A stretch of DNA of 64,000 nt. Origin: Agelas oroides. Its lineage: Eukaryota; Porifera; Demospongiae; Agelasida; Agelasidae. Below the pieces are notes generated by a model, which saw only the letters and a list, made by a program, of their open reading frames with translations, was not told the origin of the DNA and did not search any database. Positions within the stretch are counted from its first letter, which is position 1. Each line of letters begins with the position of its first letter. Shown piece by piece: positions 9,297-63,708 of the stretch. The stretch lies in assembly GCA_949130485.1 (NCBI GenBank), contig OX422184.1:24980917-25044916 (forward strand), in the 5' to 3' direction. A program made the translations under genes and the position numbers.

Positions 9297-9800
9297 TAGA
9301 TATACACTCACACAGTGGCCCCTCTAACTATGACAAAGAGAAACCACAGTCACTGCTACCATCTCATCTTCTATTTCTGGGTAGTTGTTTTCTCAGTGGG
9401 AGGACACACTGTCATACAGCCTCACTTTTAACCAACAGTAGTAAATAGCTAACTACCCAATGATTTCATTCAACCACAAGAATGATCTGCACAGATGGTT
9501 CAACAGATGGTTCAACTAGCTTCATATCCAGGCCTTTTTAACCCAACATTAGACTAGTTACTGCAGCCAATAGTACAAAATTCTGATGACAGGCAGAGAT
9601 TGTAGGTCACTGATAATTTGTGCAGCAAGACAAACGTGTAGAGAAAATTGGAACCTGCCTGGTAACAATATCCCCATTTTAAGGCTTCCAGGTTGCATGT
9701 ACATGTATTAACTTCCATCATTCATTCAGTTTGAACCGGCCAACACTAAGTAACTATCTTATGTGTTTTGTCTACCCACAGGAGTGTAGCAGCAAGCAGC

Positions 9801-18242: not shown

Positions 18243-21200
18243 ATGACACCACTAGTCATCTTCTTATCCCGCTGCTCTGCTGAGAATGTGTACTGTGTCA
18301 CACCCACTGCCACCTGCTCATCCTGCCCAGACAATTCAATCCACTGTGCCGCACTCTCTGAGTATACACGAGAAGCTGAAGTGTATTTTACCTCCAACAG
18401 TGCTATGGTGTTCTTGCCAGGTGACCATGTTCTTGATATAAATATCACAGTTGCCAATGTAGCAAGGCTCACCATGCGTGGAGAGGTTTTCTCAGGGAAA
18501 AGAGTGACACTTGTTTGCAGTGGGTCAGTTGGCCTCCTCTTTACAAGTTTGATGGAATTAAGGATAGATTCATTGGCTTTTACATCTTGTAGCAGAAAAT
18601 ATGCTATCATTCCAAATAATCATCTAGCTATTATCCAAGTGCCCCTGTACTTGCAATATACACAAGATGCTGAACTAGTTAACTGTTCTTTCCACGACAA
18701 CCTTGGCACTGCACTTCTAGTGGAGAACACCGACGTCATTTTGGCAGGGAATACTGAGTTTATATGTAACTACATGCTCTGTGGAGGTAACCTTGTTGGA
18801 GGAGGAGGTATCATTGCTCTCAGCAGCTACCTAGCATTCACTGGGAACACAACCTTCCTTAATAATAATGCATCTTGCTCGGGAGAAGGTGGTGCAATCT
18901 ACACATTAGAAAGTAGTGTTAGCTTCAAAGGAATCAACAACTTCATCAACAACTCAGCAAGTGGTAATGGTGGTGCAATCTCAACATACGATACTATACT
19001 TCACTTTAGTGGAACCAACAACTTCATCAAAAATTCAGCTCGACATGGTGGTGGTGCAATTGTCACACTAGACAGTACTGAATTTAGCTTCATTGGAACC
19101 AACAACTTTATAAATAACTCAGCACACTGGAAAGGTGGTGCAGTTGTCACTTTAGGCAATACGTTACTTACTTTCAAAGGAATCAACAACTTCACCAACA
19201 ACTCAGCAGGCCGAAGTGGTGGTGCAATCTTAGCTTCAGTGGAACCAGCAACTTCATCATCAATTCAGCACAGTGGAACGGTGGTGCAATCAGTGCAGAC
19301 AATAATACTGCACTTAGCTTCAGTGGAAGCAACAGCTTCATCAAAAATTCAGCACACCAGGTTGGTGGTGCAATCTTCACACATGACAATACTGTACTTA
19401 CCTTTGAGGGAACAAATGACTTCATCAACAACTCAGCAGGCCAATGTGGTGGTGCAGTCTTTGCAGACAATAATGTCATTAACTTCAGTGGAACCAGCAA
19501 CTTCATCAACAGCTCAGCAAACTGGAATGGTGGTGCAATCTTCACATATGATAATAATGTCTTTAACTTCAGTGGAAGCAGCAACTTCAACAACTCAGCA
19601 AGTGGTGGTGGAGCTGTTAGTACAAATGCTAACAGTTTACTAACATTCAATGGAACCGTTCGCTTTACTAACAATGGACACTATTGGGGAGGAGGTACTT
19701 CTGGTGGAGGAGTGTACATGGGAGTAAATTGCACTATTTCCATTTTACCTAACACAACTGTGTATTGGGAGAACAATGGTGCACAAGTAGGTGGAGCTAT
19801 CTTTGTTATGGATACTAGTCCTTTAAGTTACTGCACACCATTTTCCTCATATGTATCAAAAGAAAAGTGCTTCTTTCAACTCCCTGGTCAAAATGTGTCC
19901 AGTGGTATTGACGTCAAACTTGTTTTCAATAACAACTTTGCTGATGATGCAGGAAGTGTGTTATATGGTGGTGCAATAGATAACTGCAAACTCACTCATG
20001 GATTGGACTCATACAGCTCTGGTGAAGTGTTTGACATGATAGTCCACAACAATGGCTCTGATTACAACACAAATTCAAACATTTCCACTGACCCACTTCA
20101 AATATGCTCATGCGAAAACAATCTTCCAGACTGTATTAAGCATCATGTTTCACGCACAGTGTATCCTGGTGAAACATTTCAAGTTTCTGTGGTTGCAGTT
20201 GGACAAAGAAATGGAACAGTTACCAGCACAGTGATAAGTAATATAGAGGAAGGTATAAACCCAGGTCACCTCTCAGATTCTCAATACCTTCAGAAAACAA
20301 AAAACACCTGCACCAAACTGAACTACACAATGTTTTTACTGTCTGAATTTGTGCGCATGGGGTTGTATACAGCACACAGCCCATGTTCAAGTTATAATGG
20401 CTATACACTACATATATTGGTGAAGTTAAAACAGACCTGTCCACCTGGATTTAATATCTCTAAGTCCAAACAATTGTGTGTCTGTGAGCCGAAACTTCAA
20501 AGATATACAAGCAGTTGCACAATAACAAATGGATTAGGACAAATGTCACGTGATTCAAGCCAGCAGTTTTGGGTGGGGTATGATAATGAGTCTGATGAAC
20601 TGATTCTCCACCCACACTGCCCCTTTGACTACTGTGTTAATGATACTGTAGTCTTTCTTCTCAACAATACAGACAAACAGTGTGCATACAACAGGTCAGG
20701 CCTCTTGTGTGGAAAGTGTAAGAAGAATTATAGTTTAGTACATCTCACTGCAAACAGTGTACTAACAGCCATCTTGTCTTGCTCATTCCTTTTGCAGTGA
20801 TGGGAGTAGCACTGGTCCTCTTGCTCCTTGTTTGCAAACTGACAGTGGCAACAGGAATGCTCAGTGGACTAGTGTTCTATGCCAATATTGTTGGAGTTAA
20901 TTGTACCATCTTTCTACCAGTGGAATCTACTGATGCTTTCTCAATCTTCATTGCATGGCTAAACCTTGACTTTGGAATTGAGACATGTTTCTACAATGGA
21001 ATGGATGCCTACAGTAAAACATGGTTGCAGTTTGTGTTTCCAGTATGCATTTGGGTGCTAGTAGGACTGATGACTTTTGTTAGCCATTACTCACACAGAT
21101 TTGCAAGGTTGCTTGGCAACAACCCAGTTTCCGTGTTGGCAACACTCATCCTCCTCTCATATATGAAGATACTCCGTACATTGATCGCTGTGCTTTATGT

Positions 21201-21476
21201 TACCTTCCTGGAATATCCAACATGTAACAGAATGGTGTGGCTATACGATGCAAACATTGACTATCTCAGTGGCAAACACATTCCACTCTTCATAGTGGCA
21301 GTTCTTGCTTTCCTCTTCCTCTTTCTTCCTTACACTCTCTTGCTTCTCTTCAGTCAATGGCTGCAGGCCATATCACACCTCAGGCTCTTCTTGTGGTTCA
21401 ACAGTGCCAGGCTGAAAGCTTTCATTGATTCATACCATGCTCCCTACAAAGCAAAACATCGCTACTTGCCTGGACG
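18243..21476 (+). pseudogene. PMP-like beta-helix/multi-pass membrane protein, copy A (broken)
   Basis: Same family as the intact gene at 47082. The first frame runs from 18243 with CSAENVYCVTPTATCSSCP, the N-terminal domain and four beta-helix coils of the form F.GTNNFINNSA..GGAI. A loss of about 19 bases near 19230 shifts the frame. The remaining coils, Cys-rich domain and NRSGLLCGKCK motif continue in frame 2 to about 20740. There 7 bases present in the other copies are missing. The membrane part then continues in frame 1 to 21476 (KAKHRYLPGR, stop). About 180 C-terminal residues are replaced by unrelated palindromic sequence. The 5' end also lacks the usual signal-peptide exon start (MAQST...) and has only a short hydrophobic leader. 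Two frameshifts plus loss of the 3' end make it a clear pseudogene. Exonised fragments cannot be excluded. Confidence 0.85.
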
Positions 21477-24299: not shown

Positions 24300-25825
24300 A
24301 AAAAAAAACTGTGCTCATCCTGCACGATGCTAAGTCATATTTCACCTCTGACACCACTATGGTGTTCTTGCCAGGTCACCATGTTCTTGACACAAATATC
24401 ACAGTTGCCAATGACCATGTATGGAGAGTTTTCCTCAGGCAACAAGGCAACAGTCATTTGCAGTGGGTCAGTTGGCCTCAGCTTCAAAAGTATGGTGGAC
24501 TTCAAAATAGATTCCTTAGCTTTTACCTCTTGCAGCATGAAATCACAAGGAACCTACCATGTTAGTAACTATGCTCTGCTTTTGCACTCTGTACATGCTG
24601 AACTAGTGAACTGTTCCTTCTACGACAACCCTGGCACCACACTTGCAATATGTAACACCTACATGATTTTGGAAGGGAGCACAACCAATAGGGCATCTTG
24701 CTCAGTAGAAGGCGGTGCAATTTACACAGTAGACAGTACTGTTATCTTCAAAGGAATCAACAACATCATCAACAACTCAACAGGTGGTAATGGTGGTGCG
24801 ATCTTCACATACAATACTGTAGTTAATCATACGATACTATACTTAACTTCAGTGGAACCAACAACTTTAAGAAAAACTCAGCAAAACATGGTGGTGCAAT
24901 TTACACACACAATACTGTATTTCACTTTTCTGGAACCAACAGCTTCATTAAAAATTCTACATGTCATAGTGGTGGTGCATTAGACAATAATCTTACCTTC
25001 AATGGACCCAACAACCGCATCAACAACTCAGCACACTGGAAGGGTGGTACAACTTCAGTGCTTACTTTCAACAATTTCATCAGCAACTCAGCAGGCTGGA
25101 ATGGTGGTGCAATCTTTGCAGAGAATACTGCACTTAGCTTCAGTGGAACCAACAACTTCATCATCAACTCAGCACAGTGGAACGGTGGCACAATCTACAC
25201 ATATGACTATAGTGTACTTACCTTCAAAGGAACAAATGACTTCATCAGCAACTCAGCAAGTGGAAATAATGGTGGTGCAATCTTCACATATGATGCTATA
25301 CTAAACTTTGGTGGAACCAACAGCTTCATCAAAAACTCATCACGTCATGGTGGTGCAATTGTCACTTTAGGCAATACTGTACTTACTTTGAATGGAACCA
25401 ACAACTTCATCAGCAACTCAGCAGGCCACAGTGGTGGTGCAATCCTTGCACACCATACTGTACTTAGCGTCAGTGGAACCAACAACTTCATCCACAATTC
25501 AGCAAACTGGAATGGTGGTGCAATCTCCGATGGTGGTGCTGGTATCGGTGATGCAATTTCCATACAATTCAATTCTGTACTTAGTTTCAATGGAACCAAC
25601 AACTTTATCAGCAACTCAGCACACCAGGTTGGTGGTCTAATCTTCACATATGACGATAATGTTCTTACCTTAAGTGGAACCAGCAACTTCATCAACAACT
25701 CAGCAAATGATGGAGGAGCTATTGGTACAAATGCTAACAGTTCACTAACATTCAATGGGACCATTCACTTTACTAACAATGGATACTGGAGGTGCTTATG
25801 GTGGAGGAGTGTATATCAAAAGAGG
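24300..25825 (+). pseudogene. PMP-like beta-helix protein, copy B (5'-deleted, frameshifted, 3'-truncated)
   Basis: Homology begins abruptly after a CAA/A-rich tract at 24283-24310, with SDTTMVFLPGHHVLDTNITV. The signal peptide and the SCPHNNHCATL segment are missing. The first frame runs to about 24830, then shifts. Frame 2 carries about ten coils (F.GTNNFI.NSA..GGAI) to about 25785. There the sequence equivalent to YWGGGTSGGGVYMG is out of frame and homology ends near 25825. The Cys-rich domain and all membrane segments are absent. It is a pseudogene. Confidence 0.85.
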
Positions 25826-35559: not shown

Positions 35560-36073
35560 TCATACAGCCTCACTTTTCCGCCAATAGTAGTAATTAGCTA
35601 ACAACCCAATGGTCTTGTTCTACAAGAAAGATCTGTAAAGCTGCTTCAACTAGCTCCTATCAAGGGCTTTCTAACCCCACATTAGAAGGCTACTGCATGC
35701 ATACTGCAAGGAATCAGAAGGCCAGGATATGAAGCTACCTTCCAGAAACAGTGGCACATTTTGTATTTATGGCTGCAGGCAATAGTATTTTTGAAGACAG
35801 GCAGAGATGTTAGTTCACTGTATGAGACACTGATGGGAGAATTTGTGCAGTAGAGTGACTAGGGTGGCCTGGGGTCCCCATTTTAAGGGGTTCCTTAAGT
35901 TTATGACAATAGTTTTATCACCTGGTCAACCTTAAATGAGTACAATTTCCAGGTTGCTTCCACATGTATTAACTTCCATCATTCATTCAGCTTGAGCCAG
36001 CCAACACTGTGTAAAACCAAGTAGCTATATCTTATTTGTTTTGCCCACCCACAGGAGTGTAGCAGCAAGCAGC

Positions 36074-39000
36074 ATGGCTCCTGTCATCTTGCTCCTCACC
36101 CTTCTCCTCCCAATCACATGTGTCTCTGCTGTTGATGTATCCAAGTTGAATGTGCACACTGTCCCATGTAACCAAACAACAACATCTTGTGAATGTCGCC
36201 AAAATGCTGATGTGTGCATCTTCACTTTTCAGATAGAACGACGTCAGAGTTTCACTCGATACTACATTGATCCACAGAGTACAAAGCAACCAACAGATGT
36301 AGTAGCACGTGTCTATTACTTTGATGATAACAATGGAAAACTTTATGGTCACACAGGGCCCCCTAATCCATTTTGCCATAACGCCTCAGAATATGATGTC
36401 AGTAAGTGTACCCCAACATACACACTGGATGGATCAACTTACAGATCTTTTATCGCAGTGAATGGACAGATTCCAGGTCCTAAGCTAATCGTGTGGGAGA
36501 ACCAGACTGTCATTGTAAATGTTAGCAATCAACTTCCAATGGAGACTGTCTCCATCCACTGGCATGGCATGTATCAACGAAATACATACTTTATGGATGG
36601 AGTCCAACACATCACACAGTTTGGAATCGATCCACTGAAGTCCTTCTGCTACATGTTTAAAGCAATCCCATCTGGTACCTACTGGTATCACTCCCACACT
36701 GGAACCCAACTATCAGATGGTTTGTATGGTGGACTGATTATCAAAGAGAGTCCAGGTAAGGTGACACAAATCCAGAATGCACTGTCTCAACATCAAGCAC
36801 TATGGAATTACCGAGACATACCAGCTGAACATACGCTTGTCATTGCTGACTGGTATCGTGCAGATGCAATAACTGATTACTCTTTGCTTTTAAGTGACTG
36901 CTGGTTCTATAATTATACAGAAGGAAAACCCCCAGGCCCCAATGATAAACCACAAGGATTTAGCTTTGGACCAGATGGACAGGAAGCCAGGAATTATCCA
37001 TTCTGGTCTGCATTGATCAATGGAAAGGGCAAACATCCTGACATACCCTATTTGACATCACGTCTATCTGTATTCAATGTCGACCCTGGCCAAGTGTATC
37101 GTTTTCGCCTGATTGGAGCAATCAATAACTATTTGTTTCGGTTCTCAATAGATGAGCATCAACTCTGGGTTGTAGGGACAGATGGACACTGGGTGAAGCC
37201 TGTGCCAGTGGACTACATTGCCCTACAATCAGGAGAGAGGTATGATTTTCTACTCATTACCAAGAGCACCTCCAATGCTAAGCGCAACTACTGGATACGA
37301 GCTGAAACACAAGAGATTAGTGAGAAGGATGCTACAAATCCTACAGGTCCAGCACCCTACCGCATGTTGTTAGATCATGCAGCTGAGGCAATTCTCCACT
37401 ATAATATGCCTGGAGCTTCACAGCCAACTTCAGCAGACTATGTGAACATCAAGAACAATTCTATCCCTGTCAATTCAACCTGCACCTCAGACCATCACTG
37501 CGTAATGATGAACTGTCCGTGGAATATACACCCTGCCTACAATCTAACATGTAGGCATGTGGACTCTCTTCAACTTCTCCTTCCTTCCCCAGAAAATATA
37601 CTTCCAAAGGCCACTCCAGATGAGGAAATTTTCTTCCAATTTGGTACAGAAGGTTTGAATGGTGTGAGTTCTGTAAATGGACGCCGTTTACGGTTTCCAT
37701 CAGTCCCTCCTAGATTGACTGTTAATAATCAAGAATTCCAAGAGATATATGACCGTGAATACTGCAAAAATTTGAATGACCCTAACCTCTGCTACGATGT
37801 GAACAATGAGTTGTCAAATCCAGATTGCTGGTGTGTCCACATGAGGAATCTCAAGCATGGAAAAACCTATCGGTTTGTGTATACTGTAGCTGGGCCACAT
37901 GGTGCATTTAGCCATCCAATACATATGCATGGCCACAGCTTCTTTGTAGCCAAGATTGGTCTACCACATATTTACAACAGAACTGGCTTTGCTGATTGCT
38001 TTTCTGATGACATTGAATGTAGTACATATCCACCAGGGTTCGGAAAATGTGACTATGATAAAATGACCAATAGTAAAGCAGACTATACCTGTCCTGCACC
38101 AAAGTGGGCTCCTGGGCAACAGTACACATATCCTTTGCCCACACCATCAGGTAAGATTGACCCACACACACCTCGGAAAGATACAATTTTGGTTCCAGAA
38201 GGCGGCTATGCAGTAATCTATGTAGTTGCAGACAACCCTGGCATCTGGTTCATGCACTGTCATATTGAGAACCACCAAGCTGAAGGCATGGAAGTGATTC
38301 TTAATGAGGCACAACCAAACCAGAACCCGTCACCACAAGCGATGCGTCAATTTGGCAACTTTCAACCGACCCTCCAAGAGTTCTATGACTGGCTGGAGTT
38401 TAACCCAGACAACCTGCCAACAACTCCACCACCACCGGCCACATGTGCTGCTGCTGGCTTCACCAGTGGATGCTGCAGTGAGCCGGGCAACAAATGCTAC
38501 GTCCCCACTGGTAACTGTAGGTGTGACGCCCAGTGCTACCAGTTAGGTAACTGCTGCCCAGATGTTCAGTGTGCCAGACGTAAGTCAGTAATAAATGTGG
38601 CAGTACTGACTAATAATTCAACAGTATTTTATTGTAAAGAATGCGACTCAATATCTGCCCCAAATATTGCAATTTGCCATTTACTGTAGCCTCAACTTTT
38701 TTTGAAAGACATTAAGTGTACTGTATAGCTAGCTACTTTAAAAAGTTGAGTGAAAACCTTGAAACACAATGCATGTGATTTGTGACTTTGTTTGTGCTTA
38801 AACTAATGCATGGTAGAGTAGATTAGTTGCTTAATTCTCTCCATTGCAGGCTTCAGTAGCAATGCTGTATGTAGTGACAGTACGGTACCACTTAATCTAT
38901 GAAATAGTTATTTTACCCATGCACTAATTCTTTTCAGGGATTTTTTTTACTTATATATTGGTAACTGTTGTGCAAACCTATAATCACCTGTCCCTTTATC

Positions 39001-41184: not shown

Positions 41185-42219
41185 GCCATGAATACTGCAA
41201 GCATAACCTGCTAGCAATTCTCATAGGAGTTGGGAATCTTTTCTTGTGGCTGTGGATCAGTGGTGGAGTTTACACAAACAAGTATATAAATGTTCTGGAA
41301 GGTTCATTTGCACTTAACCTGATCATTCTAACTGCTATCACCTACTGTGTCAATCTCTTTAAAGGAAATCAGCTCATAGTTGGGTACACCTGGACCATCT
41401 CTATCTCAATAGCATTTGCTACATTCATTGGAATCTTTGTCTTTCGGCTGGCAAATGTGACTGGCACAACTCAATACCTTAAAAGGAAGTTTGCAGCGTT
41501 GAAAGTAGCAATGAACCAAAATGAAGCTAAAGCTGAACCAAGGTCCCCTTTAGGCTATGGACTCCCTGCCAGACCAGCTGTTAACCCTTTAAACACTGAA
41601 TTTTTTTCACCGGAGATTAGTTTTAGCCTAAACATGCCTTTAACGCACCGTATCTCCATTTCTGTCAAAGCTCTGACTTCAAAACTGAGCCCAACTCCAC
41701 TTCCAGCCTTAGCAAGCAGACACGTGACCTTAACCACGCCCCCTCATTAACGAGCATGCAATGGTCGGCACTCTCGATTGGCAAACACCCGCTTAGGGCC
41801 CAAGAGGCCTTCCCTGCCAGAAATGAACCCCCTGAAGGGTGAGAGTAGCATTTTCTAAGCCTGCTCATGCAGCCAGGCCAAGAGTTGGCCCACCCGGTGC
41901 CAACCACGGTCCTTTTGCAGCCAAGCCTAGCAGCTGCCATGTGCACAGCACCCTGCAGGTGACCCCACCCACCTCCCCCTGTCCCACCGTTTCTGCTGAC
42001 GCAGAACCTGCGCGCCAGCGCGCAGAGACTATCTTTTCTGCGAAGTGCGCAGTATGACGTTATCAAAAGTGTACTATAGGGTTTAAAGGGTTAAACCCAG
42101 ATGATTATGAGCCATCACTCTACATTCCACAAAGACTCGCCACTGCTGAGCCAACAGAAGGAACTGATGAAGCACAAAGAAGACTAACTCCTTTGTATAC
42201 TTACGGCTTCATTAAGTAG
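41185..42219 (+). pseudogene. PMP-like family, copy F: C-terminal membrane part only, split by a transposon
   Basis: The frame from about 41185 encodes NLLAILIGVGNLFLWLWISG, then GVYTNKYINVLEGSFALNLI and later FRLANVTGTTQYLKRK. It matches the last three membrane segments and tail of gene C (its residues about 1149-1310). Seven extra bases near 41554-41560 shift the tail frame. A 506-bp TTAA-flanked element (41585-42090) then interrupts the sequence. The tail resumes at 42095 (PDDYEPS..., AEPTEGTDEAQRRLTPLYTY) and ends at a TAG at 42217-42219. Everything upstream (ectodomain and first membrane segments) is missing. It is a dead 3' relic lying downstream of MCO gene 2. Confidence 0.85.
41585..42090. 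mobile_element. TTAA-flanked MITE, copy 1 (piggyBac-like signature)
   Basis: ccctttaaac at the left and gtttaaaggg at the right are perfect inverted termini, bounded by ttaa at 41581-41584 and 42091-42094. A TTAA duplication and CCCTT-type ends are the signature of piggyBac-type elements; no transposase is present. Homology of the flanks to the uninterrupted tails of genes C and D confirms the insertion. A second, shorter copy lies at 53287-53711. Confidence 0.75.
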
Positions 42220-45116: not shown

Positions 45117-45500
45117 ATAAAGATTTAGATGTTATGAAGTGAAAAAGGCCGGCAGCCACCAGGAGTCGAACCCAGGACACCTGGCTTGAGCCGCCAGTGC
45201 TCTGCCACTGAGCTATGGCAACCGGACAACCACCAGCCCTCACAATCCTCTAATATGTACTGAGCATTTAGAGTGAGAAAACCACTCAGCATGTGTTCTT
45301 TCATGATGGAGAGAATTTTCCGGTCGACCCCTAATGGAGTTCTGACAGCACATACTGAGTGGCTGCCGGGTGTGCGACTGAGGCATTCAGTACCACCTCA
45401 AGCCAGGTGTCCTGGGTTCGACTCCCGGTGGCTGCCGGCCTTTTTCACTTTCCTCTATTTTCGCCTCATAACATCTAAATTCCTTTATTTAAATCCACAA
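45117..45500. repeat. Inverted repeat with tRNA-like arms
   Basis: The left arm (about 45117-45196: aataaagatttagatgttat, then gaagtgaaaaaggccggcag) is mirrored by the right arm (about 45398-45494: ctgccggcctttttcacttt, then cataacatctaaatt). Both arms include a tRNA-like 3' half with the B-box word gggttcgactcc. The pair forms a roughly 380-bp fold-back unit, either two SINEs in opposite orientation or one palindromic element. Confidence 0.6.
45152..45222 (-). tRNA. tRNA-like sequence, probably a tRNA-derived repeat (SINE head), not a proven gene
   Basis: On the minus strand it starts gttgccatagctcagtgg (A box) and carries ggttcgactcc (B box). It folds with a GCTC/GAGC D-stem, a perfect CTGGC/GCCAG anticodon stem and a 5-bp T-stem with two G-U pairs. 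The acceptor stem has a mismatch. The anticodon loop GGCTCAA would give anticodon CTC, but position 33 is G instead of the near-universal T. It lies in one arm of a longer inverted repeat, which favours a mobile element over a working tRNA. Confidence 0.45.
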
Positions 45501-46780: not shown

Positions 46781-47081
46781 GGTGCTGGCTGCTGTGTAGC
46801 TAGGCTATTATCATACTTCAGGTGTAATATACAATTCTTCATATAGCATAAACTGGTGGTGGAGATTCCCTATCTTCTTATGCGCTCATGGTAGAGCATA
46901 ATTAGCTAGCTGTGAAATGCTTACATGGTGTTCTTGGATCTTTCTCTGGGTCCATAGCAACTTGCACAGCAGTAGCAAACTTAATGGCTAAATTTTGATG
47001 AAATGGATGATTTGCAGATAATAACTTTACAAAATTGTGGTAATACAAACTTCTGCTTTTCTGCAGTTGTTACAACACGAG

Positions 47082-50000
47082 ATGGCTCAGTCCACACCAT
47101 TCATTGTTCTTGTGGCAGCACTGCTCATTAACACCCTCTCCTACTGCTCTGCTGAGAATATGTACTGTGTCACACCCACTGCCACCTCATGCTCATCCTG
47201 CCCTCACAATAACCACTGTGCCACACTCTCTGAGTATGCACAGGAAGCTGAACTTTATTTTACTTCCAACACTACTATGGTGTTCTTGCCAGGTGACCAT
47301 GTTCTTGATAAAAATATCACAGTTGCCAATGTAGCCAGGCTGACCGTGCGTGGAGAGTCTTCCTCAGGCAACAGAGCAACAGTTGTTCGCAGTGAGTCCG
47401 TCGGTCTCCGCTTTACAAATATGATGGAGTTCAAAATAGATTCTTTAGTATTTACATCTTGCAGCAGAAATTATGCTATCATTCCAAATAATCATCTAAC
47501 TTTTACCCAAGTGGCCCTGTATTTGCAATCAACACAAGATGCTGAACTAGTTAACTGTTCCTTCCAGGACAACCTTGGCACTGCACTTCGAGTGGATAAC
47601 ACAAACATCAGTCTGGCAGGGAACAGTGAGTTTACACGTAACTATATGCTTTGTGGTGCTAACCTTGCTGGAGGAGGAGGTATCATTGCTTACAGCAGCA
47701 CCCTAACATTCACTGGGAACACAACCTTCCTTAATAATACTGCATCTTGCTCAGTAGGTAGTGGTGCAATCTACACATTAGAAAGCAGTATTAGCTTCAA
47801 AGGAACCAACAACTTCATCAACAACTCAGCAAGTGGCGATGGTGGTGCGATCTACACATACGATACTATACTTAACTTTAGTGGAACCAACAACTTCATC
47901 AACAACTCAGCAAAATATGGTGGGGCAATCGTCACAAGCAGTACTGTACTTAACCTTAGTGGAACCAACAGCTTCATCATAAATTCAGCTCATCTTAGTG
48001 GTGGTGCAATTGCCATAGACAATACTGTACTTACCCTCATTAGAAACAACACCTTTGAAGGAACAAACGACTTCATTAGCAACTCAGCAGGTGGTAATGG
48101 TGGTGCGATCGTCCTATACAATAGTATAATTAATTTTAATGGAACCAACAACTTTAGCAAAAACTCAGCAAAAAATGGTGGTGCAATCTTCACAAACAAT
48201 ACTGTACTTTACCTGAGTGGAGACAACAGCTTCATCAAAAATTCAGCACATGATGGTAGTGGTGCAATTGTTAAGTTAAACACAGTACTTACTTTCAATG
48301 GAACCAACAGCTTCATCAACAACTCAGCAAGTACTGTTGGTGGTGCAATCTTTGCAAACCATGCTACACCTAGCTTCATTGGAACCAACAACTTCATCAA
48401 TAATTCAGCAGGCAGTAATGGTGGTGCAATCATCACAGAAAATACTGTACTTACCTTCAATGGAACCAACAGCTTCATCAGCAACTCAGCAGGCCAAATG
48501 GGTGGTGCAATCATTGCAAACACTACTGCACTTAGCTTCAGTGGAACCAGCAACTTCATCAACAACTCAGCAGGTGGTGGTGGAGCTATTTGTGCAACTC
48601 AAAACAGTTCACTGACATTCAATGGAACCCTTCACTTTACTAACAATGGATACTATTGGGAAGGAAATACTAATGCTGGTGGAGGAGTGTACATGGGAGT
48701 AAATTCCACTGTCTCAATTTTGCCGAACACAACTGTGTATTGGGAGAAAAATCATGCGCAGACAGGAGGAGCTATCTATGTTATGGATGCTAGCCCTTTA
48801 AGTTATTGTACTCCACTTGTCCCATATGTACCAAAACAACAGTGCTTCTTTCAACTCCCTGACCAGAATCTGTCCAATGGTATTGACGTCAAACTTGTTT
48901 TCAAGAACAACTCTGCTGATGTTGCAGGAAGTGTGTTATATGGTGGTGCAATAGATCACTGCAAATTCACTCATGGCCTGGACTCACACAGCTCTGGTGA
49001 AGTGTTTGACATGATAGTCCACAACAATGACACTTACTACAACACAACTTCAAATATTTCCACTGACCCAATTCAAGTATGCCCATGTGAAAACAATCTT
49101 CCAAACTGTAGCAAGCATCATGTTTCACACACAGCGTATCCTGGTGAAACGTTTCAAGTTTCTGTGATTGCAGTTGGACAAAGAAATGGAACTGTTTCCA
49201 GCGAAGTGATATGTAGTATAGATCAAAGTATGAATCCAGGCCATTTCGCAGATTCTCAACATCTCCAGAAAACAAAGAACACCTGCACCAAACTGAAATA
49301 CACCATTTTTTCATTGTCTCAGTTTGTCAGCATGGGGCTGTATGCAGAAAACAGCCCATGTTCAAGCTATAGTGGCTATACACTACATATATTGGTGAAG
49401 TTAAATCAGACCTGCCCACCTGGATTTAATATCTCTAGGTGTAAACAATCATGTGTCTGTGATCCCAAACTTCAAAGATATACCAACAGCTGTACAATAA
49501 CAAATGGACTAGGACAAATAACACGTGATTCAACCCAGCATTTTTGGGTTGGCTATGATCATCAATCTCATGAACTGATTCTTCACCCACACTGCCCCTT
49601 TGACTACTGTGTTAATCATACTGTAGTCTTTCTTCTCAACAATACAGACAAACAGTGTGCTTACAACAGATCAGGTCTCTTGTGTGGAACGTGTAAGAAG
49701 ATTTATAGTTTAGTACTAGGCACATCTCACTGCAAAAGGTGTACCAACAGCCATCTTGTCTTGCTCATTCCTTTTGCAGTGATGGGAGTAGCACTGGTCT
49801 TCTTGCTCCTTGTTTGCAAACTGACAGTGGCAACAGGAATGCTCAGTGGCCTGGTGTTCTATGCCAATATTGTTGGAGTTAATCGTACCGTCTTTCTACC
49901 AGTGGAATCTACTTATGCTTTCTCAATCTTCATCGCATGGCTAAACCTTGACTTTGGAATTGAGACATGTTTCTACAATGGAATAGATGCCTACAGCAAA

Positions 50001-51014
50001 GCATGGCTGCAGTTTGTGTTTCCAGTATATATTTGGGTGTTAGTAGGACTGATGATTCTCTTTAGTCATTTTTCACACAGGATTGCAAGGCTGCTTGGTA
50101 ACAACCCAGTTTCTGTATTGGCAACACTCATCCTCTTCTCATACACAAAAATCCTCCGCACATTGATCACTGCTCTTTACATTACCTATCTTGAATACCC
50201 AACATATAACAAAATGGTGTGGCTATGCAATGCAAACGTTGACTATCTTAGTGGCAAACACATTCCACTGTTTGTAGTGGCAGTTCTTGTCTTCCTTTTC
50301 CTCTTTCTTCCTTATACTCTCTTGCTTCTCTTTGGTCAGTGGCTGCCGGTCATATCACAACTGAGGCTCTTCTCTTGGATCAACAGTGCCAAGCTGAAAC
50401 CTTTTGTAGATTCATACCATGCTCCCTACAAAGCAAAACATCGCTACTGGCCTGGACTGCTGCTCATGCTTCGCTTTGTTCTTCTTCTAGTGTTTAACTT
50501 CAATTTAGATGAAGACCACAGTGTTAACATGCTAGCAATACTAGTGGGAACTGGATTTCTTGTAGCATGGGCCTGGCTCAGTGGTGGAGTTTACAGAAAC
50601 TGGTGTCTAGATGCCCTGGAATGTTCATTTGCTCTGAACCTGATCACCCTGGTTGGGGCTACCTTCTATGTCAATCACTCAGGAGGAAATCAGCTTGCAG
50701 TTGGGTATACCTCTGTCTCCATAGTATTTGCAACATTTTTTTGTATCTTTGCTTTTCAGCTGGCGAATGTGACTGGCATCACTCAATATCTAAATAGAAA
50801 GTGCCAAGCTTTGAAAATAACAATCAGAAATCTACACTCTGAAGCTGAAGTGAGGTCTCCTACTGACTCCCTGCCAGACCGGTTAATAAACCCAGAGGAG
50901 TATGAGCAACAATTGCACACTCCACAAAGAGATGCCACTGCTGTACCAACAGAAGGAGCTAATGAAGGACAGAGAAGACTAACTCCTCTGTATACGTACG
51001 GTTCCATTAACTAA
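47082..51014 (+). CDS. PMP-like beta-helix receptor-like multi-pass membrane protein (gene C, intact)
   Basis: A single open frame of 1310 residues. The ATG at 47082 is chosen because it follows a ttctgcag acceptor and starts a clear signal peptide (MAQSTPFIVLVAALLI, cleavage near CSA24). Residues 25-200 form an N-terminal domain with paired cysteines (CVTPT, CSSCPHNNHCATL). Residues about 215-540 hold ten coils of 23-30 residues with the two Chlamydia PMP signatures, FxGTNxF..NSA (FxxN) and GGAI, each coil carrying an NNS or similar glycosylation sequon. A Cys-rich region follows (CPPGFNIS, CVCDPKLQRY, NRSGLLCGTCK). From residue about 890, nine or ten hydrophobic segments reach about 1230. 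The cytoplasmic or lumenal tail ends TPLYTYGSIN. The role is unknown. A PMP-like beta-helix suggests adhesion or recognition, and the membrane part could be a transporter, channel or receptor; neither is shown. It is the only intact member in this window. Confidence 0.9.
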   Translation: MAQSTPFIVLVAALLINTLSYCSAENMYCVTPTATSCSSCPHNNHCATLSEYAQEAELYFTSNTTMVFLPGDHVLDKNITVANVARLTVRGESSSGNRATVVRSESVGLRFTNMMEFKIDSLVFTSCSRNYAIIPNNHLTFTQVALYLQSTQDAELVNCSFQDNLGTALRVDNTNISLAGNSEFTRNYMLCGANLAGGGGIIAYSSTLTFTGNTTFLNNTASCSVGSGAIYTLESSISFKGTNNFINNSASGDGGAIYTYDTILNFSGTNNFINNSAKYGGAIVTSSTVLNLSGTNSFIINSAHLSGGAIAIDNTVLTLIRNNTFEGTNDFISNSAGGNGGAIVLYNSIINFNGTNNFSKNSAKNGGAIFTNNTVLYLSGDNSFIKNSAHDGSGAIVKLNTVLTFNGTNSFINNSASTVGGAIFANHATPSFIGTNNFINNSAGSNGGAIITENTVLTFNGTNSFISNSAGQMGGAIIANTTALSFSGTSNFINNSAGGGGAICATQNSSLTFNGTLHFTNNGYYWEGNTNAGGGVYMGVNSTVSILPNTTVYWEKNHAQTGGAIYVMDASPLSYCTPLVPYVPKQQCFFQLPDQNLSNGIDVKLVFKNNSADVAGSVLYGGAIDHCKFTHGLDSHSSGEVFDMIVHNNDTYYNTTSNISTDPIQVCPCENNLPNCSKHHVSHTAYPGETFQVSVIAVGQRNGTVSSEVICSIDQSMNPGHFADSQHLQKTKNTCTKLKYTIFSLSQFVSMGLYAENSPCSSYSGYTLHILVKLNQTCPPGFNISRCKQSCVCDPKLQRYTNSCTITNGLGQITRDSTQHFWVGYDHQSHELILHPHCPFDYCVNHTVVFLLNNTDKQCAYNRSGLLCGTCKKIYSLVLGTSHCKRCTNSHLVLLIPFAVMGVALVFLLLVCKLTVATGMLSGLVFYANIVGVNRTVFLPVESTYAFSIFIAWLNLDFGIETCFYNGIDAYSKAWLQFVFPVYIWVLVGLMILFSHFSHRIARLLGNNPVSVLATLILFSYTKILRTLITALYITYLEYPTYNKMVWLCNANVDYLSGKHIPLFVVAVLVFLFLFLPYTLLLLFGQWLPVISQLRLFSWINSAKLKPFVDSYHAPYKAKHRYWPGLLLMLRFVLLLVFNFNLDEDHSVNMLAILVGTGFLVAWAWLSGGVYRNWCLDALECSFALNLITLVGATFYVNHSGGNQLAVGYTSVSIVFATFFCIFAFQLANVTGITQYLNRKCQALKITIRNLHSEAEVRSPTDSLPDRLINPEEYEQQLHTPQRDATAVPTEGANEGQRRLTPLYTYGSIN

Positions 51015-51368
51015 TCCATTAGCTAGTTTTATAACTATTTCACCTCAAACTTGTCATGCAGTGTCTATATAATAGTTTTGATTAGGGATACCATTTTCCT
51101 GAATTATGTGGTATACTAGGTTCATATTACTTTTGTAGCTAGCTAAAAAGCATTTTCGTAAATTTACTAATACCTGAGCATTTGTATTTGCATGGCTGCT
51201 TGCAGTTTACAGTCGATCATTACATTTGCCTTCCAAAAATCTGTTCTTGCAATGTTGCTTACTGAGTATGGGTGCAAGCTAGCTGTTGTGAAATGACGTC
51301 AGTAATAACTTCATCACCAGGCCTTGTGTACAGGGCTTTCAATAAGGTGGAACCCTTGAGTCAGCTGT

Positions 51369-51510
51369 ATGCTGAGTATACTGGGGTAAGTATGCTGAGT
51401 ACACTGAGTTAAGTATGATGAGTATACTGAGGTAAGTATGCTGAGTATACTGAGGTAAGTATGATGAGTATACTGAGGTAAGTATGATGAGTATACTGAG
51501 GTAAGTATGC
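51369..51510 (+). repeat. 23-bp minisatellite (about six units)
   Basis: The unit taagtatgatgagtatactg plus agg repeats about six times, with gctgag/gatgag alternation and a few substitutions. It lies 350 bases downstream of gene C. No coding role is seen. Confidence 0.85.
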
Positions 51511-52143
51511 TTAATAATTATTGTGGGGCAGGGAGAAGATTAGTCTTCTGTCATATAGTCATTCAGGTAGGAAAACTTTGAATCAGCAATCAGGTCGATT
51601 CTAATCATGAATAATTAATGATTGGGTGACCATGATAGCACTATTAAAATTCATTGGCTTGTTTGCATTTTCCAACCGTATCAGCGAGGAGGGTGTGTCC
51701 CTTTGATGTGGCATGTGGCCCTTTGTAGAGGTCTGGTGGCACTTTCATGTGGCTGGGTCAAACTTTGAAGAAATCCTCCAACACTTATTACACCACAAGT
51801 GGAAGAAATATTGTATAGCATAATAATTAATGTTGAGAAAACTACAAAACTGCACGTGTATGTCCAGTGTTTTAGCCTTTCTTCCCAAGCCTGAGAGGAC
51901 TTACTGATGTATGACATCAAAGTATCATTGAAGCACCTTCAGTTAAAGCACTAAGCCTGAGAGGTAATCCACGGAGACTATAACAGGGCCAAACATTTGC
52001 CATCAAAAAATAGAACCTACAGTGTCACAGGATTTTACAGTGGCCAAACTAGCTATCTTAACATGAAGGTACTTACATTTGATAAAGATGAGAATATGCA
52101 ATTTTTCTAAAACCACTGCTAACCTCAATTATGATTAAAAAAA
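51511..52143. other. Gene-free stretch downstream of gene C
   Basis: No conserved open frame, repeat or RNA was recognised. Confidence 0.4.
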
Positions 52144-55278: not shown

Positions 55279-58200
55279 ATGGCTCAGTCCACACCATTCA
55301 TTGTTCTTGTGGCAGCACTGCTCATAATTACCCTCTCTTGCTGCTCTGCTGAGAATGTGTACTGTGTCACACCCACTGTCTCTTCATGCTCATCCTGCCC
55401 TCACAATAACCACTGTGCCACACTCCCTGAGTACGCACGAAAAGCTGAACTGTATTTTACCTCAAACACCACTATGGTGTTTTTGCCAGGTGACCATGTT
55501 CTTGATACTAACATCACAGTTGCCAATGTAAGCAGACTGACCATGCGTGGAGAGTCTTACTCAAACAACAGAGCCACAGTTGTTTGCAGTGGGTCAGTTG
55601 GCCTCAGCTTCACAGGTATGGTGGACCTCAAACTAGATTCTTTGGCCTTTACATCTTGCAGCAGAAAATATGCTATCATTCCAAATAATCATACAGCTAT
55701 TATCCAAGTGGCTCTATATTTGCACTCTACACGAGATGCTGAACTAGTTAACTGTTCCTTCCATGACAACCCTGCCACTGCACTTCGAGTAGATAACACC
55801 AACATCATTTTGGCAGGGAGTACTGAGTTTACACGTAACTACATGCTCTGTGGTGCTAACGCTGCTGGAGGAGGAGGTATTGTTGCTCTCAGCAGCAACC
55901 CAACATTCACTGGAAACACAACCTTCAATAGTGCATTTTGCTCAGTAGGTGGTGCAATCTACACATTAGACAGCAGTGTTAGCTTCAAAGGAATCAACAA
56001 CTTCATCAACAACTCAGCAAGTGGTGATGGTGGTGTGATCTCCACATACAGTACTACACTTTACTTTAGTGGAACCAACAACTTTATCCAAAACTCGGCA
56101 GAAAATGGTGGTGCACTCTTCATGAACAATACTGTACTTTCCCTTAGGGGAACCAACAGCTTCATCATAAATTCAGCTCGTCATGGTGGTGGTGCAATTT
56201 TCACATTAGGAAATACTGTACTTACCTTCAAAGGAACCAACAGCTTCATCAACAACTCAGCAGGCCAAAGTGGTGGTGCAATCATTGCAAACCATACTGC
56301 ACTTAGCTTCAGTGGAACCAGCAACTTCATCAACAATTCAGCAAACTGGAGAGGTGGTGCAATCTTCACATATGATAATAATGTCTTTAACTTCAGTGGA
56401 ACCAGCAACTTCATCAACAACTCAGCAAGTGGTGGTGGAGCTGTTAGTACAAATGCTAACAGTTCAATGACATTCAATGGAACCGTTCACTTTACTAACA
56501 ATGGACCGTATTGGGGAGGAGGTACTTCTGGTGGAGGAGTGTACATGGGAATACTTTGCACTGTTTCCATTTTGCCTAACACAACTGTGTATTGGGAGGA
56601 CAATTGTGCACAGGTAGGAGGAGCAATCTATGTTATGGATGCTAGTCCTACAAGTTACTGTACTCCACTTGTCCCATATGTACCAAAACAACAGTGCTTC
56701 TTTCAGCTCCCTGGTCAAAATCTGTCCAGTGGTATTGATGTCAAACTTGTTTTCAAGAACAACTCTGCTGATGTTGCAGGAAGTGTGTTATATGGTGGTG
56801 CAATAGATAATTGCAAACTCACTCATGGCCTGGACTCACACAGCTCTGGTGAAGTGTTTGACATGATAGTCCACAACAATGACACTTGCTACAACACAAC
56901 TTCAAACATTTCCACTGACCCAATTCAAATATGCCCATGTGAAAACAATCTCCCAGACTTTATTAAGCATCAAGTTTCACACACAGCGTATCCTGGTGAA
57001 ACATTTCAAGTTTCTGTGGTTGCAGTCGGACAAAGAAATGGAACAGTTCCTAGTGAAGTGATAAATGATATAGACAATAGGGTGAATTTAGGTCATCTTC
57101 CAGATTCTCAATACCTCCAGAAAACAAAAATCACCTGCACCAAACTGAATTACACCGTGTTTTCACTGTCTCAGTTTGTGAGCATGAGGCTGTATGCTGC
57201 ACATAGCCCATGTTCAAGTATAATTGACTATAGACTAATTATATCAGTGAAGTTAAATCAGACTTGCCCACCTGGATTTAACATCTCAAAGTCAAAACAA
57301 TCGTGTGTCTGTGATGCCAAACTTCAAAGATATTGAAACAGCTGCACAATAACAAATGGATTAGGACAAATAGCACATGATTCAAGCCAGCAGTTTTGGG
57401 TGGGGTATGATAGTCAATCTGATGAACTGATTCTTCACCCACAGTGCCCCTTTGACTACTGTGTTAGTGATACTGTAGTCTTTCCTCTCAACAATACAGA
57501 CACTCAGTGTGCTAACAACAGATCAGGCCTTTTGTGTGGAAAGTGTAAGAAGAGTTATAGTTTGGTACTAGGCACATCTCATTGCAAAAAGTGTACCAAA
57601 AACCATCTTATCTTGCTCATCCCTTTCGCAGTGATGGGAGTAGCACTGGTCTTCTTGCTTTTTGTTTGCAAACTGACAGTGGCAACAGGAATGCTCAGTG
57701 GACTAGTGTTCTATGCCAACATTGTCGGAGTTAATCGTACTATCTTTCTACCTGTGGAATCTACTGATGCTTTCTCAATCTTCATTGCATGGCTAACCTT
57801 TGACTTTGGTATTGAGACATGTTTCTATGATGGAATGGATGCCTATAGCAAAACATGGCTGCAGTTCGTGTTCCCAGTATATATCTGGGTGTTAGTAGGA
57901 CTGATGATTGTTGTTAGCCATTTCTCACAGAGATTTGCAAAGCTGCTTGGCAATAACCCGGTTTCCGTGTTGGCAACACTCATCCTACTCTCATACACAA
58001 AGATTCTTCGCACTTTGATTGCTGTATTTTATATCACCTACCTTGAGTATCCAACAAATAATAGAATGGTGTGGCTATATGATGCAAATGTTGACTATCT
58101 CAGTGAAAAACACACTCCACTTTTTGTAGTGGCAGTTCTCATTTTCGTCTTCCTCTTTCTTCCTTACACTCTGTTGCTTCTGTTTGGTCAGTGGCTGCAG

Positions 58201-58851
58201 GCCATATCACACTTGAGGCTCTTCTCATGGGTCAACAGTGCCAGGCTGAAAGCTTTCATGGACTCATACCATGCTCCCTACAAAGCAAAACATCGTTACT
58301 GGCCTGGACTGCTGCTCATGCTTCGCTTTGTTCTTCTTCTAGTGTTTGCCTTCAATTTAGAGGAAGACCACAGTATTAACATGCTAGCAATTTTAGTGGG
58401 AACTGGATTTCTTGTAGCATGTGCCTGGCTCAGTGGTGGGGTTTACAGAAACTGGTGTCTAGATGCCCTGGAATGTTCATTTGCTCTGAACATGATCATT
58501 CTGGTTGGGGCTACCTTCTATGTCAATCACTCACACAGAAATCAGCTTGTAGTTGGGTATACCTCAGCCTCTATAGCATTTGCAACATTTACTTGTATCC
58601 TTGCTTTTCAGCTAGCAAATTTGACTGGTATCACTCGATACCTAAATAGAAAGTGCCCAGTTTTGAAAAAAGCAATCCAAAATCCACAAGAAGCTGAATC
58701 TGAACTGAGATCTCCTACAGGCTCCCTGCCAGACCGGTTGATAAACCCAGAAGAGTATGAACCACCATTCCACACTGAGCCAACAGAAGGAGCTAATGAA
58801 GCACAGAGAAGTCTCATAACTCCTGTGTACACTTACGGCTCCATTAACTAA
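55279..58851 (+). pseudogene. PMP-like beta-helix multi-pass membrane protein (gene D) with one in-frame TGA
   Basis: The same architecture as gene C: ATG 15 bases after a ttctgcag acceptor, signal peptide MAQSTPFIVLVAALLI, Cys-containing N-terminal domain, PMP-like coils (six NSA coils instead of ten), a Cys-rich region, nine or ten membrane segments from residue about 775, and the tail TPVYTYGSIN. The frame is open across 1190 codons except for TGA at codon 686 (57334-57336), where gene C has ACC and copies A and E have ACA. Flanking codons align without gaps. Possible explanations are a recent nonsense mutation, readthrough, or a base-calling error; ACA to TGA needs two changes, which makes a single sequencing error less likely. 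If the stop is real, the product is a secreted 685-residue ectodomain lacking the membrane part. Recently inactivated gene is the cautious call. Confidence 0.75.
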
Positions 58852-62395: not shown

Positions 62396-62537
62396 AAAGA
62401 GTTGTGCGGGGAACAGAACCGTGAGTTGTTCAGTGACATAAGGGGGAGAGGTGGGGCTAGTAATGCTTGCTTGCACTCGTGAATGAGCCCCTCCCGTAGA
62501 CAAGCTGTAAATTTTTTGATGGGGCAATAGGTCACTG

Positions 62538-63708
62538 CAGACTTACTCATGGCCTGGACTCAAAACAATGACTGATTACAACATAACTTCAAATATTTCC
62601 TCTCACCCATTTTACATGTAAAAACAACCATCCAACAGACTGTCGTATATCTATGAGAAAATGGTATGGTATTATATACGCTATGTATTACTTTCCACAC
62701 ACAGTGCACCCTGGTGAAACAATTCAACAATCTGTGGTTGCAGTTGGACAAAGAAATGGAACACTTCCTAGCACAGTCAGAAGTACAATAAACAATCTAA
62801 ACTCCGGATTTGAAAATGCTAATGCAAAGCCTGTGGGTGCTAATCTTCGAGACTCTCAATACCTCCAACAAGCACGCAAGATCTGCACCAAACTGAACTA
62901 CACTGTGTTTTCATTGTATCAGAAAGTTTTCATAAAGTTGCAAGCAGGAGGGAGCCCATGTTCAAATTTTATTCATACAGTAATTGCAGTGAACCTAAGT
63001 CAGACCTGCCCACCAGGATTCAGCATCTCTAAGTCTAACAAATCATGTGTCTGTGAGCAAAGACTAGCAAAATATACAAACAGCTGCACAATATATCAAA
63101 AGGAGTAAGCCAAAAAAAACACGCAATTCAAAACAACATTTTTGGGTTGGATATGATCATCAATCTCATGGACTAATTCTCCACCCACACTGCCCATTGG
63201 ACTACTGTGTTAATGATACAGTGATATTTCCTCTCAACAATACAGACAAACAGTGTGCATACAACAGGTCAGGCCTCTTGTGTGGAGCTTGTAAGAAAGG
63301 TTACAGCATGGTACTGGGCACATCACAATGCTGGAAGTGTACTAACAACCATCTTCTTTTGCTCATATCTTTTGCAGTGATGGGGGTAGCACTGGTTTTC
63401 TTCCTCTTTGTCTCCAAACTGACAGTGGCAACAGGAACACTCAGTGGCCTACTGTTCTACGCCAACATTGTTGGAGTCAATCGCACCATCTTTCTACCAG
63501 CGGAATCTACTAATCTTTTTTCACTTATTGCGTGGCTAAACCTTGACTTTGGTATTGAGACATGTTTCTACAATGGAATGGATGCCTACAGCAAAACATG
63601 CCTGCAGTTCATATTTCCGGTATACATTTGGGTGCTAGCAGGACTGATGATTCTTGTTAGCCATTTTTCACAGAACTTTGCAAGGCTGCTTGGCAACAAT
63701 CCAGTGTA
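62538..63708 (+). pseudogene. PMP-like family, copy E (truncated at both ends, frameshifted)
   Basis: Homology starts at ttactcatggcctggactca, equivalent to the middle of the gene C ectodomain, so the signal peptide and all coils are missing. Frame 1 carries HPGETIQQSVVAVGQRNGT, CPPGFSISKSNKSCVCEQRL and KYTNSCTIYQKE, stopping at 63108. Frame 2 resumes with DYCVNDTVIFPLNNTDKQ, NRSGLLCGACKKGYSMVLG and the first membrane segments. It ends at ARLLGNNPV, stop (TAA at 63707-63709), where homology is lost. It is a pseudogene fragment. Confidence 0.85.

Follow-up and report, generated by a model that had tools for sequence, protein, structure and literature searches.

Architecture of P0001 and its neighbours

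The window, meaning the whole 64-kb stretch of the Agelas oroides genome analysed here, carries one intact gene, P0001, and five further copies or fragments (Table 1). Judged from its sequence, P0001 probably encodes a large glycoprotein with an extracellular Chlamydia-type beta-helix and a membrane part of about nine passes, glycosylation being suggested by sequons. The signal peptide proposed in the initial annotation coincides with a hydrophobic, signal-peptide-like segment, and the five additional copies or fragments that it listed were recovered by tblastn; none is intact, the best preserved being the fourth. The putative 3' splice site TTTCTGCAG lies just 5' of the ATG, implying a 5'-UTR intron. 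An acceptor-like sequence precedes the ATG in 28 of 33 aligned copies, whereas windows taken from more distal upstream sequence as background contained one in 63 of 231 cases, and the sequence upstream of the site is unconserved among copies. In the main subfamily, the coding region consists of one exon, with the putative 3' splice site usually directly before the ATG. A motif related to the stalk signature YPGETFxxxxxAVGQRxGTV was read by eye in the divergent members L037, L040, L042, L043 and L046.

Table 1 Features of P0001 and related copies in the window (residues refer to P0001).
Feature	Position	Strand	Basis
P0001 coding region, intact, single-exon, 1310 aa	47082..51014	+	ATG 47082, TAA 51012-51014, no stop inside frame
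Signal peptide, residues 1-24	47082..47153	+	Hydrophobic peak at residues 6-24, also in family alignment (hydropathy, no dedicated signal-peptide program)
Ectodomain N-terminal cap, residues 25-190	47154..47651	+	Few gaps except residues 121-150 and 181-210 (33-copy alignment); model confidence mostly low
Predicted beta-helix coils, residues 191-570, GGA[I] and FxxN motifs	47652..48791	+	PF02415, TIGR01376, motif positions, model pLDDT, beta-helix matches
Helix end and Cys-rich stalk, residues 571-835, with YPGETFxxxxxAVGQRxGTV	48792..49586	+	Conserved alignment blocks; model confidence low
Cys-rich neck, residues 836-890, CPFDYC...QC..NRSG.LCG.C..GYS..LGTS.C..C	49587..49751	+	Resembles DUF7630 PF24633
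Membrane module, probably nine spans, residues 891-1232	49752..50777	+	Hydropathy, loop charges, invariant positions
Type-A tail, residues 1233-1310, PDRLINPEEYE ... YTYGSIN	50778..51011	+	Tail types counted over 33 copies
Putative 3' splice site TTTCTGCAG, 15 nt before ATG	47058..47066	+	Exact in 17 of 33 copies
Degraded copy, split across frames	18246..21474	+	tblastn, best pieces 70-85% identity
Fragment, ectodomain only, split across frames	24323..25789	+	tblastn, reading frames
Fragment, last membrane spans (41205-41600) and tail (42091-42216)	41205..42216	+	tblastn
Nearly intact copy, one in-frame TGA at 57334-57336	55279..58848	+	tblastn, reading frames
Fragment, stalk, neck and first membrane spans	62512..63706	+	tblastn, reading frames

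The ectodomain is predicted to form a beta-helix

P0001 matched the Pfam family Chlam_PMP (PF02415) with an E-value of 9.7e-10, exceeding its cut-off, and the NCBIfam model POMP_repeat (TIGR01376) with an E-value of 5.5e-19, while Beta_helix (PF13229) was matched under its cut-off (E 9.2e-5). At the level of sequence, these three matches are not due to chance. Both repeat signatures reported initially, GGAI and FxxN, are present, but the count of ten coils was not borne out: 13 GG[AG][ILVMF] motifs, spaced by 26-33 residues and the last of them (residue 621) outside the main array, bring the number nearer to a dozen. Structure prediction, proposed as a check, modelled the coil region as a beta-helix, with 30 of 39 ten-residue blocks at a pLDDT of at least 60, and this predicted region has the right-handed beta-helix form that characterizes the passengers of chlamydial Pmps. 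Foldseek matches of the ectodomain were weak (best E 6.4e-3); among the 50 listed matches of the coil-region model no eukaryotic family was recognised, which rules nothing out.

Neck, membrane module and tail

With E-values up to 10 admitted, DUF7630 (PF24633) was listed in 31 of 32 copies, at best with an E-value of 8.2e-5. The neck of P0001 scored 13.9 bits, far under the curated 27-bit cut-off, which was exceeded at four places in the genome (28.5-29.2 bits); by hmmscan, L036-L038 scored 22.8-25.7 bits and seven other divergent members 11.9-18.5 bits. The likeness concerns the Cys-rich neck, and this 45-residue family is silent on coils and spans.

Downstream of the neck, hydropathy revealed ten strongly hydrophobic peaks, in line with the nine or ten segments counted initially, and loop charges favour a probable arrangement of nine spans with the tail inside. 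Two features fit this topology poorly: the neck, assigned outside, carries a net charge of +1.1, and 7 of 33 copies have a glycosylation sequon in the loop 995-1011, which is assigned inside. The AlphaFold2 model of the membrane module (one job, five window rows) reached a pLDDT of 36 and was left out of the fold search, so that the number of spans and the fold rest on hydropathy and charge; span number and orientation, like the beta-helix, are thus supported by prediction. Comparison of 12 members identified 38 invariant positions in neck and module. Invariant polar and charged residues accompany the roughly nine spans (N120, D275, R286, W288, R296 and N351, in a numbering other than that of P0001).

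Profile searches of the membrane part agreed with the earlier view of a module without a defined family. In Pfam searches at E-values up to 10 (32 main-subfamily modules, L036, L037 and L038) and up to 1 (seven other divergent members), no family of channels or transporters came close to its cut-off. Searching PDB sequences with the module yielded nothing below E 1 (best E 1.1), and the best NCBIfam match over 12 members had an E-value of 0.13. No Pfam or PDB sequence match pointed to a 7TM family, and the span count is nine or ten versus seven. Several sub-cut-off Pfam matches to spans were taken as chance: DUF6542 (E 0.014, L038), DUF6220 (E 0.042, L036), PEN-2 (E 0.25, L045), MurT_C (E 0.038) and others in a few of the 32 copies, as was TMEM249, a sperm-channel auxiliary subunit, in one of 32 modules (E 0.23). 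As far as sequence comparison goes, the module matches no catalogued family and is covered by no Pfam model used.

The YTYGSIN tail, described as conserved, holds in part: the peptide is exact in 10 of 33 copies and type-A tails occur in 22, but 10 carry a different tail, type B (LRE[PS]xLED), and one copy is truncated. The tail type bearing LREPLLE is probably the older one. Profile searches of P0001 and divergent members found no signalling domain in the tails.

A large superfamily with variable rods and a constrained membrane part

Two membrane-module searches, together with one DUF7630 match, located at least 190 loci, a lower bound, on 21 contigs of the 259-Mb assembly (largest contig 32.7 Mb), often in tandem; 153 loci have open frames of at least 1000 aa. 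Divergent members share about 31-52% identity in the module and have quite different ectodomains. The possibility that ectodomain and membrane part belong to separate genes was examined in genomic sequence: both lie in one unbroken frame in 32 of 33 aligned copies, the exception, L026, breaking off within the membrane part.

Between tandem copies that are almost identical, the differences amount to whole coils, and the older pair L017/L032 shows a two-residue gap in the membrane part as well. Constraint on the membrane part (omega 0.25) is roughly double that on the ectodomain. Pairwise omega exceeded 1 in none of 525 comparisons of the coils, in 1 of 524 of the neck and in 8 of 331 of the tail; the 129 of 468 obtained for the 24-residue signal peptide reflect a ratio made unstable by few sites. 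The description of the family as rapidly evolving therefore applies to coil number and copy number, but not to proven positive selection in the coils. This pattern, with entire turns of the helix gained and lost in the ectodomain and the membrane part conserved, is what a receptor repertoire would show.

When 84,980 prokaryote genomes and 2.9 million viral contigs were scanned with peptide patterns and phage records were searched by tblastn, no relative of the module came to light; these searches covered prokaryotes and viruses and say nothing of other sponges. Similar multipass proteins seem to be present, as uncharacterised entries, in the proteomes of sponges and other early animals. Keyword searches of a collection of open-access papers listed none that connects PMP repeats to sponges, to corals or to a membrane part of several passes.

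A candidate recognition receptor family

We consider it an evenly balanced proposition that P0001 is one of a very large family of cell-surface receptors that expanded in the sponge lineage. What is observed is the architecture, the size of the family, a turnover of coils among near-identical copies, unequal constraint, and the conservation of module and tails; from these we infer a receptor role, with ligands, glycosylation and coupling as follows. The signal peptide would direct the protein into the ER. The N-terminal rod, sequon-rich and probably glycosylated, would be a right-handed beta-helix with about a dozen rungs of 27 residues each, set on a Cys-rich stalk. Its ligands would be particulate or surface-bound, with glycans or glycoproteins from microbes or other sponge cells as the likeliest candidates. 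The Cys-rich neck would couple the rod to the conserved module of about nine spans, and the tail peptides PDRLINPxEYE...YTYGSIN or LREPLLE may recruit signalling or trafficking adaptors. Diversity would arise as genes duplicate in tandem and as rungs are added or dropped whole, presumably when the DNA repeats recombine, with the membrane module held constant. Against a recognition receptor speak the coils, where a recognition surface might have shown omega above 1, the lack of a signalling domain in the tails, the gap in the membrane part of L017/L032, the two features that fit the topology poorly and the weakness of the ectodomain Foldseek matches.

Other explanations account for parts of these data. 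The rod could bind extracellular matrix or other sponge cells while the spans mainly anchor it without signalling; variable rod length suits spacing or homophilic contacts, and passages of PMC6701047 link PMP repeats to adhesion in Chlamydia and describe Pmp proteins that raised adhesion in trichomonads. However, about nine spans at an omega of 0.25, with 38 invariant positions among 12 members, exceed the needs of an anchor, and the trichomonad Pmps described there manage with one span; we regard pure adhesion as rather unlikely. No likelier, in our estimate, is a scavenger or phagocytic receptor whose rod captures bacteria or polysaccharide and whose tail drives endocytosis. Sponges filter-feed on bacteria, which counts for uptake, as do the conserved tail peptides, which are short and have paired leucines or tyrosines; yet by eye these peptides are off the spacing of the canonical motifs, [DE]xxxL[LI] or NPxY. 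Many trichomonad Pmp tails bear endocytic motifs, according to parts of PMC6701047.

If the beta-helix were the sensor of a channel or transporter gated by ligand or force, such a protein would make use of about nine spans and their invariant polar or charged residues, but the Pfam and PDB sequence results above lower this option to unlikely. Finally, contamination by bacterial or viral DNA, or else a selfish element, might be suspected from the high copy number, from PMP repeats being best known from bacteria, and from at least one contig of the assembly, C107, whose COX1 match lacks TGA codons and which may be of bacterial origin. The spread of loci over 21 contigs, the acceptor-like site conserved in the main subfamily, the prokaryote, viral and phage scans without a relative of the module, and the divergence of copies under purifying constraint make it highly improbable, and the initial assignment to a eukaryotic gene is upheld.

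Returning to the receptor family, a bolder extension, which we put forward tentatively, is that this nine-span superfamily, new to description, serves sponges as a main repertoire for non-self or chemical recognition, with hundreds of genes. If so, each gene would carry its own beta-helix, diversified by adding or removing whole solenoid rungs, comparable to the use of leucine-rich repeats by the antigen receptors of lampreys and the immune receptors of plants. Classic examples of beta-helix solenoids are the adhesins of bacteria and the tailspikes of phages; in the present case an animal would have based a repertoire of at least 190 loci on that rung motif, joined to a module outside the Pfam models used. 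Few candidate receptor families are known for self/non-self and food/symbiont discrimination in sponges, and this large, modularly variable family would add one.

Comparison with known systems

Chlamydial Pmps form a multigene family whose GGA[ILV] and FxxN repeats are predicted to fold into a beta-helix, as set out in sections of PMC10715098, and P0001 shares both motifs and predicted fold. By contrast, chlamydial Pmps end in an autotransporter region (PF03797) that lies in the outer membrane of a bacterium, whereas P0001 has a stalk, a neck and about nine spans in a eukaryote; PF03797 was not matched in P0001, which has ten strongly hydrophobic segments instead, or in the modules of 32 copies. 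The Chlamydia-PMP likeness claimed at the outset is thus one of repeat motif and fold, not of whole-protein membership. Portions of PMC10715098 and PMC6701047 report PF02415 members in more than 100 non-chlamydial species including Trichomonas, 48 of them in T. vaginalis, and these trichomonad Pmps resemble P0001 as an expanded eukaryotic family with PMP repeats and conserved short-tail motifs. They differ in having one C-terminal span and an ATPITK motif (excerpts of PMC6701047), compared with the ten peaks and favoured nine spans of P0001, in whose translation ATPITK was not seen by eye near the C-terminus. The beta-helix passengers Vag8 and pertactin share 11-12% identity with P0001 and have no membrane part in common with it. 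Expanded single-exon chemoreceptors such as odorant receptors combine many copies, tandem clusters and one-exon coding after a 5'-UTR intron; they have seven spans and no large ectodomain, and their likeness to the present family is one of organisation.

The window gene and its neighbourhood

The window covers bases 24,980,917-25,044,916 of contig 2, in an assembly of 259.3 Mb and 141 contigs. The coils of P0001, the protein of the window gene, were matched by Pfam Chlam_PMP (E 9.7e-10) and NCBIfam POMP_repeat (E 5.5e-19) and, under its cut-off, by Pfam Beta_helix (E 9.2e-5). P0001 carries 13 GG[AG][ILVMF] motifs, or 14 at a spacing of 26-33 residues under a somewhat broader pattern, and 36 N-glycosylation sequons in residues 1-890. 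The initial annotation had counted five further copies or fragments in the window; tblastn bore this out, and none of the five is intact. The two multicopper oxidase genes are 86% identical across 2.7 kb, with alike and colinear flanks (about 5.1-14.3 kb and 31.2-40.5 kb), and sit in a segmental duplication that lies between PMP copies.

Features of the window
Feature	Position	Strand	Remarks
Coding frame of P0001	47082-51014	+	1310 aa, stop-free
Multicopper oxidase gene 1	9768-12353	+	single frame, 861 aa; PF07732, PF00394, PF07731
Multicopper oxidase gene 2	36041-38689	+	single frame, 882 aa; PF07732, PF00394, PF07731
tRNA-Glu (CTC) gene	45150-45223	-	
Minisatellite	51367-51511		6.3 copies of 23-bp unit; begins 353 bp past the stop codon of the P0001 gene

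A large, clustered family shares the membrane module

Because scoring was restricted to the best candidates, locus counts are lower bounds: queried across the genome, the complete protein gave 69 matches (35 of 1515 candidates scored), and the membrane part by itself (104 of 1098 scored) gave 105 rows representing 104 loci, all at least 72% identical and 83 with an open frame (stop to stop) of at least 1000 aa. A genome search with DUF7630, which resembles the Cys-rich neck, placed four sites over the cut-off, three of them new loci (L036, L037 and L038), divergent members that P0001 matches at 24-38% identity. Using the L036 module as query, 106 matches were found among 930 candidates, 33-40% identical with self excluded. 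Both module lists and the L037 place together comprise at least 190 loci on 21 contigs, 153 of them with frames of at least 1000 aa; 117 of the 190 lie in 33 clusters with neighbours no more than 50 kb apart, the biggest holding 11.

Ten divergent members were examined (L036-L038, L040-L046). Chlam_PMP scored over cut-off in L037 (4.2e-26), L044 (2e-22), L042, L043 and L045, and not in L036, L038, L040, L041 and L046, whose repeats were judged by eye to be other solenoids. Across 12 members, 38 positions of neck and module are invariant, and the module signatures centre on NLDxGIETCF and DAYxxPYKxxxRYWxG. No Pfam model matched the spans at cut-off, either in the modules of 32 main-subfamily copies and L036-L038 (E <=10) or in the other seven divergent members (E <=1), and a PDB sequence search with the module returned nothing below E 1. 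The best Pfam match on the spans, DUF6542 in L038 (E 0.014, below cut-off), was taken as chance.

Gene structure

We aligned 33 of the 35 main-subfamily loci, omitting L003 and L008, whose longest frame lacks one end; being among the best-scoring, these copies are biased toward intact, similar genes. The sequence TTTCTGCAG stands as an exact match a short way 5' of the start codon in 17 of the 33, and an acceptor-like site precedes the ATG in 28, versus 63 of 231 background windows, with conservation dropping off farther upstream. Two of the five remaining copies, L005 and L026, owe the missing call to automatic start choice, an AG site being visible there, while L020, L021 and L029 show no clear acceptor-like site. 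The site just before the ATG thus implies an intron in the 5' UTR, with the coding region in one exon. In L038 the first 80 residues lack a Met, so this locus probably has a further 5' exon.

Mitochondrial and C107 contigs

On the mitochondrial contig (C141), cox1 reads through TGA codons and is split close to profile position 212. The ORF between its two parts, within the 8-kb stretch C141:12001-20000, looks LAGLIDADG-like, an apparent endonuclease, but none of the intron models of Rfam scored up to cut-off. This stretch also holds ten tRNAs and frames read as nad6, nad3, nad4L and nad1. Cnidarian mitochondria are not known to encode more than two tRNAs, and the genomes of placozoans measure about 100 Mb; a sponge is therefore the very probable host. 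At C107:16176-16808 there is another COX1 match (E 1.1e-57), this one free of TGA codons. Contig C107 perhaps stems from contamination or from a bacterial symbiont, and the assembly is thus not necessarily pure.

The ectodomain varies by whole coils

Pairwise omega (NG86) was computed for 526 of 528 non-independent pairs, with n of 331-526 depending on region. Medians were 0.72 for the signal peptide, 0.48 for the N-cap, 0.49 for the coils, 0.47 for the stalk, 0.22 for the neck, 0.25 for the membrane part and 0.45 for the tail (1233-1270); coil omega exceeded 1 in none of 525 pairs. Median dS among the 33 copies was 0.39 in the N-cap, 0.47 in the membrane part, 0.67 in the coils and 0.77 in the neck, differences that may reflect gene conversion of gene parts.

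Protein length in the 33 copies (1156-1401 aa) tracks mostly coil number, with 8 to 17 GGA-type motifs per copy. Young pairs provide the clearest evidence for coil-number change. L010 and L031 (contig C9) differ by 32 residues, one 1-residue gap and one 27-aa coil, while for L020 and L029 (contig C7) the count is 33 residues along with three complete coils (27, 29 and 28 aa). L005/L022 have 221 mismatches, and two of their gaps, at 27 and 26 aa, are the size of a coil amid small ones. L027/L030, with 24 mismatches, are free of gaps. L017/L032 show 346 mismatches, a gap of 44 residues and numerous small gaps, including a two-residue one in the membrane part.

From 29 copies we took 71 rungs that measure exactly 27 aa and start with GGA[ILVM], so that GGA is fixed by choice. 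Constancy in this set is 90-92% at F14, G16, F20, N23 and A25, and variability is highest at positions 27 (3.7 bits), 26 (3.6), 8 (3.2) and 7 (2.9). Similarity between rungs is only slightly higher within a gene (0.551 over 74 pairs) than across genes (0.508 over 2411). Stacking would line up the variable turns on one face of the rod.

Membrane topology and tails

Ten hydropathy peaks lie in P0001 residues 893-1230, and persist in the mean hydropathy of the main subfamily and three divergent members. On balance, loop charges and sequons favour nine spans over ten, with the neck outside and the tail inside; residues 915-954 would then form one span, perhaps with a re-entrant piece. Mean net charge over the 33 copies is positive at 995-1011 (+1.8), 1084-1123 (+5.1) and 1231-1262 (+2.2), negative at 955-975 (-2.4), 1031-1064 (-0.6) and 1143-1148 (-0.8), and near neutral at 1167-1179 (+0.3) and 1198-1212 (+0.4). 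There are sequons within residues 932-938 of 26 copies, 1031-1064 of 10 and 1198-1212 of 9. Against this nine-span topology stand sequons at 995-1011 in 7 of 33 copies and the neck's net charge of +1.1.

Tails are of type A (PDRL[IVM]N) in 22 copies, type B (LRE[PS]xLED) in 10 and cut short in one; exact YTYGSIN ends 10 of the 33. Type B looks like the ancestral form and type A like a derived one, since [LY]R[ED][PST]xL occurs within the final 40 residues of 8 of the 10 divergent members. A tree of the module with 42 rows, built from the ten divergent members and all of the 33 copies but L026, unites those 32 copies with support 100/99. Type A needs two tail changes on this tree and type B three; 10 of its 39 internal branches are open, and a long-branch flag falls on seven of the divergent rows. 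L025, with a type B tail, nests with weak support among type A copies, perhaps through tail exchange between paralogues.

A possible receptor repertoire

A conserved module, an ectodomain varying by whole repeats and a large clustered family together make a receptor-repertoire pattern. Recognition receptors are the likeliest reading, to which we give an even chance; an uptake receptor, an adhesion anchor and a channel are live rivals. A search of open-access literature by search words found no paper on such an architecture. Chlamydial Pmps end in an autotransporter barrel, which P0001 lacks, and trichomonad Pmps have a single span, whereas about nine are predicted for P0001, so that it belongs to neither group. 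What P0001 shares with both is the rung motif and the fold.
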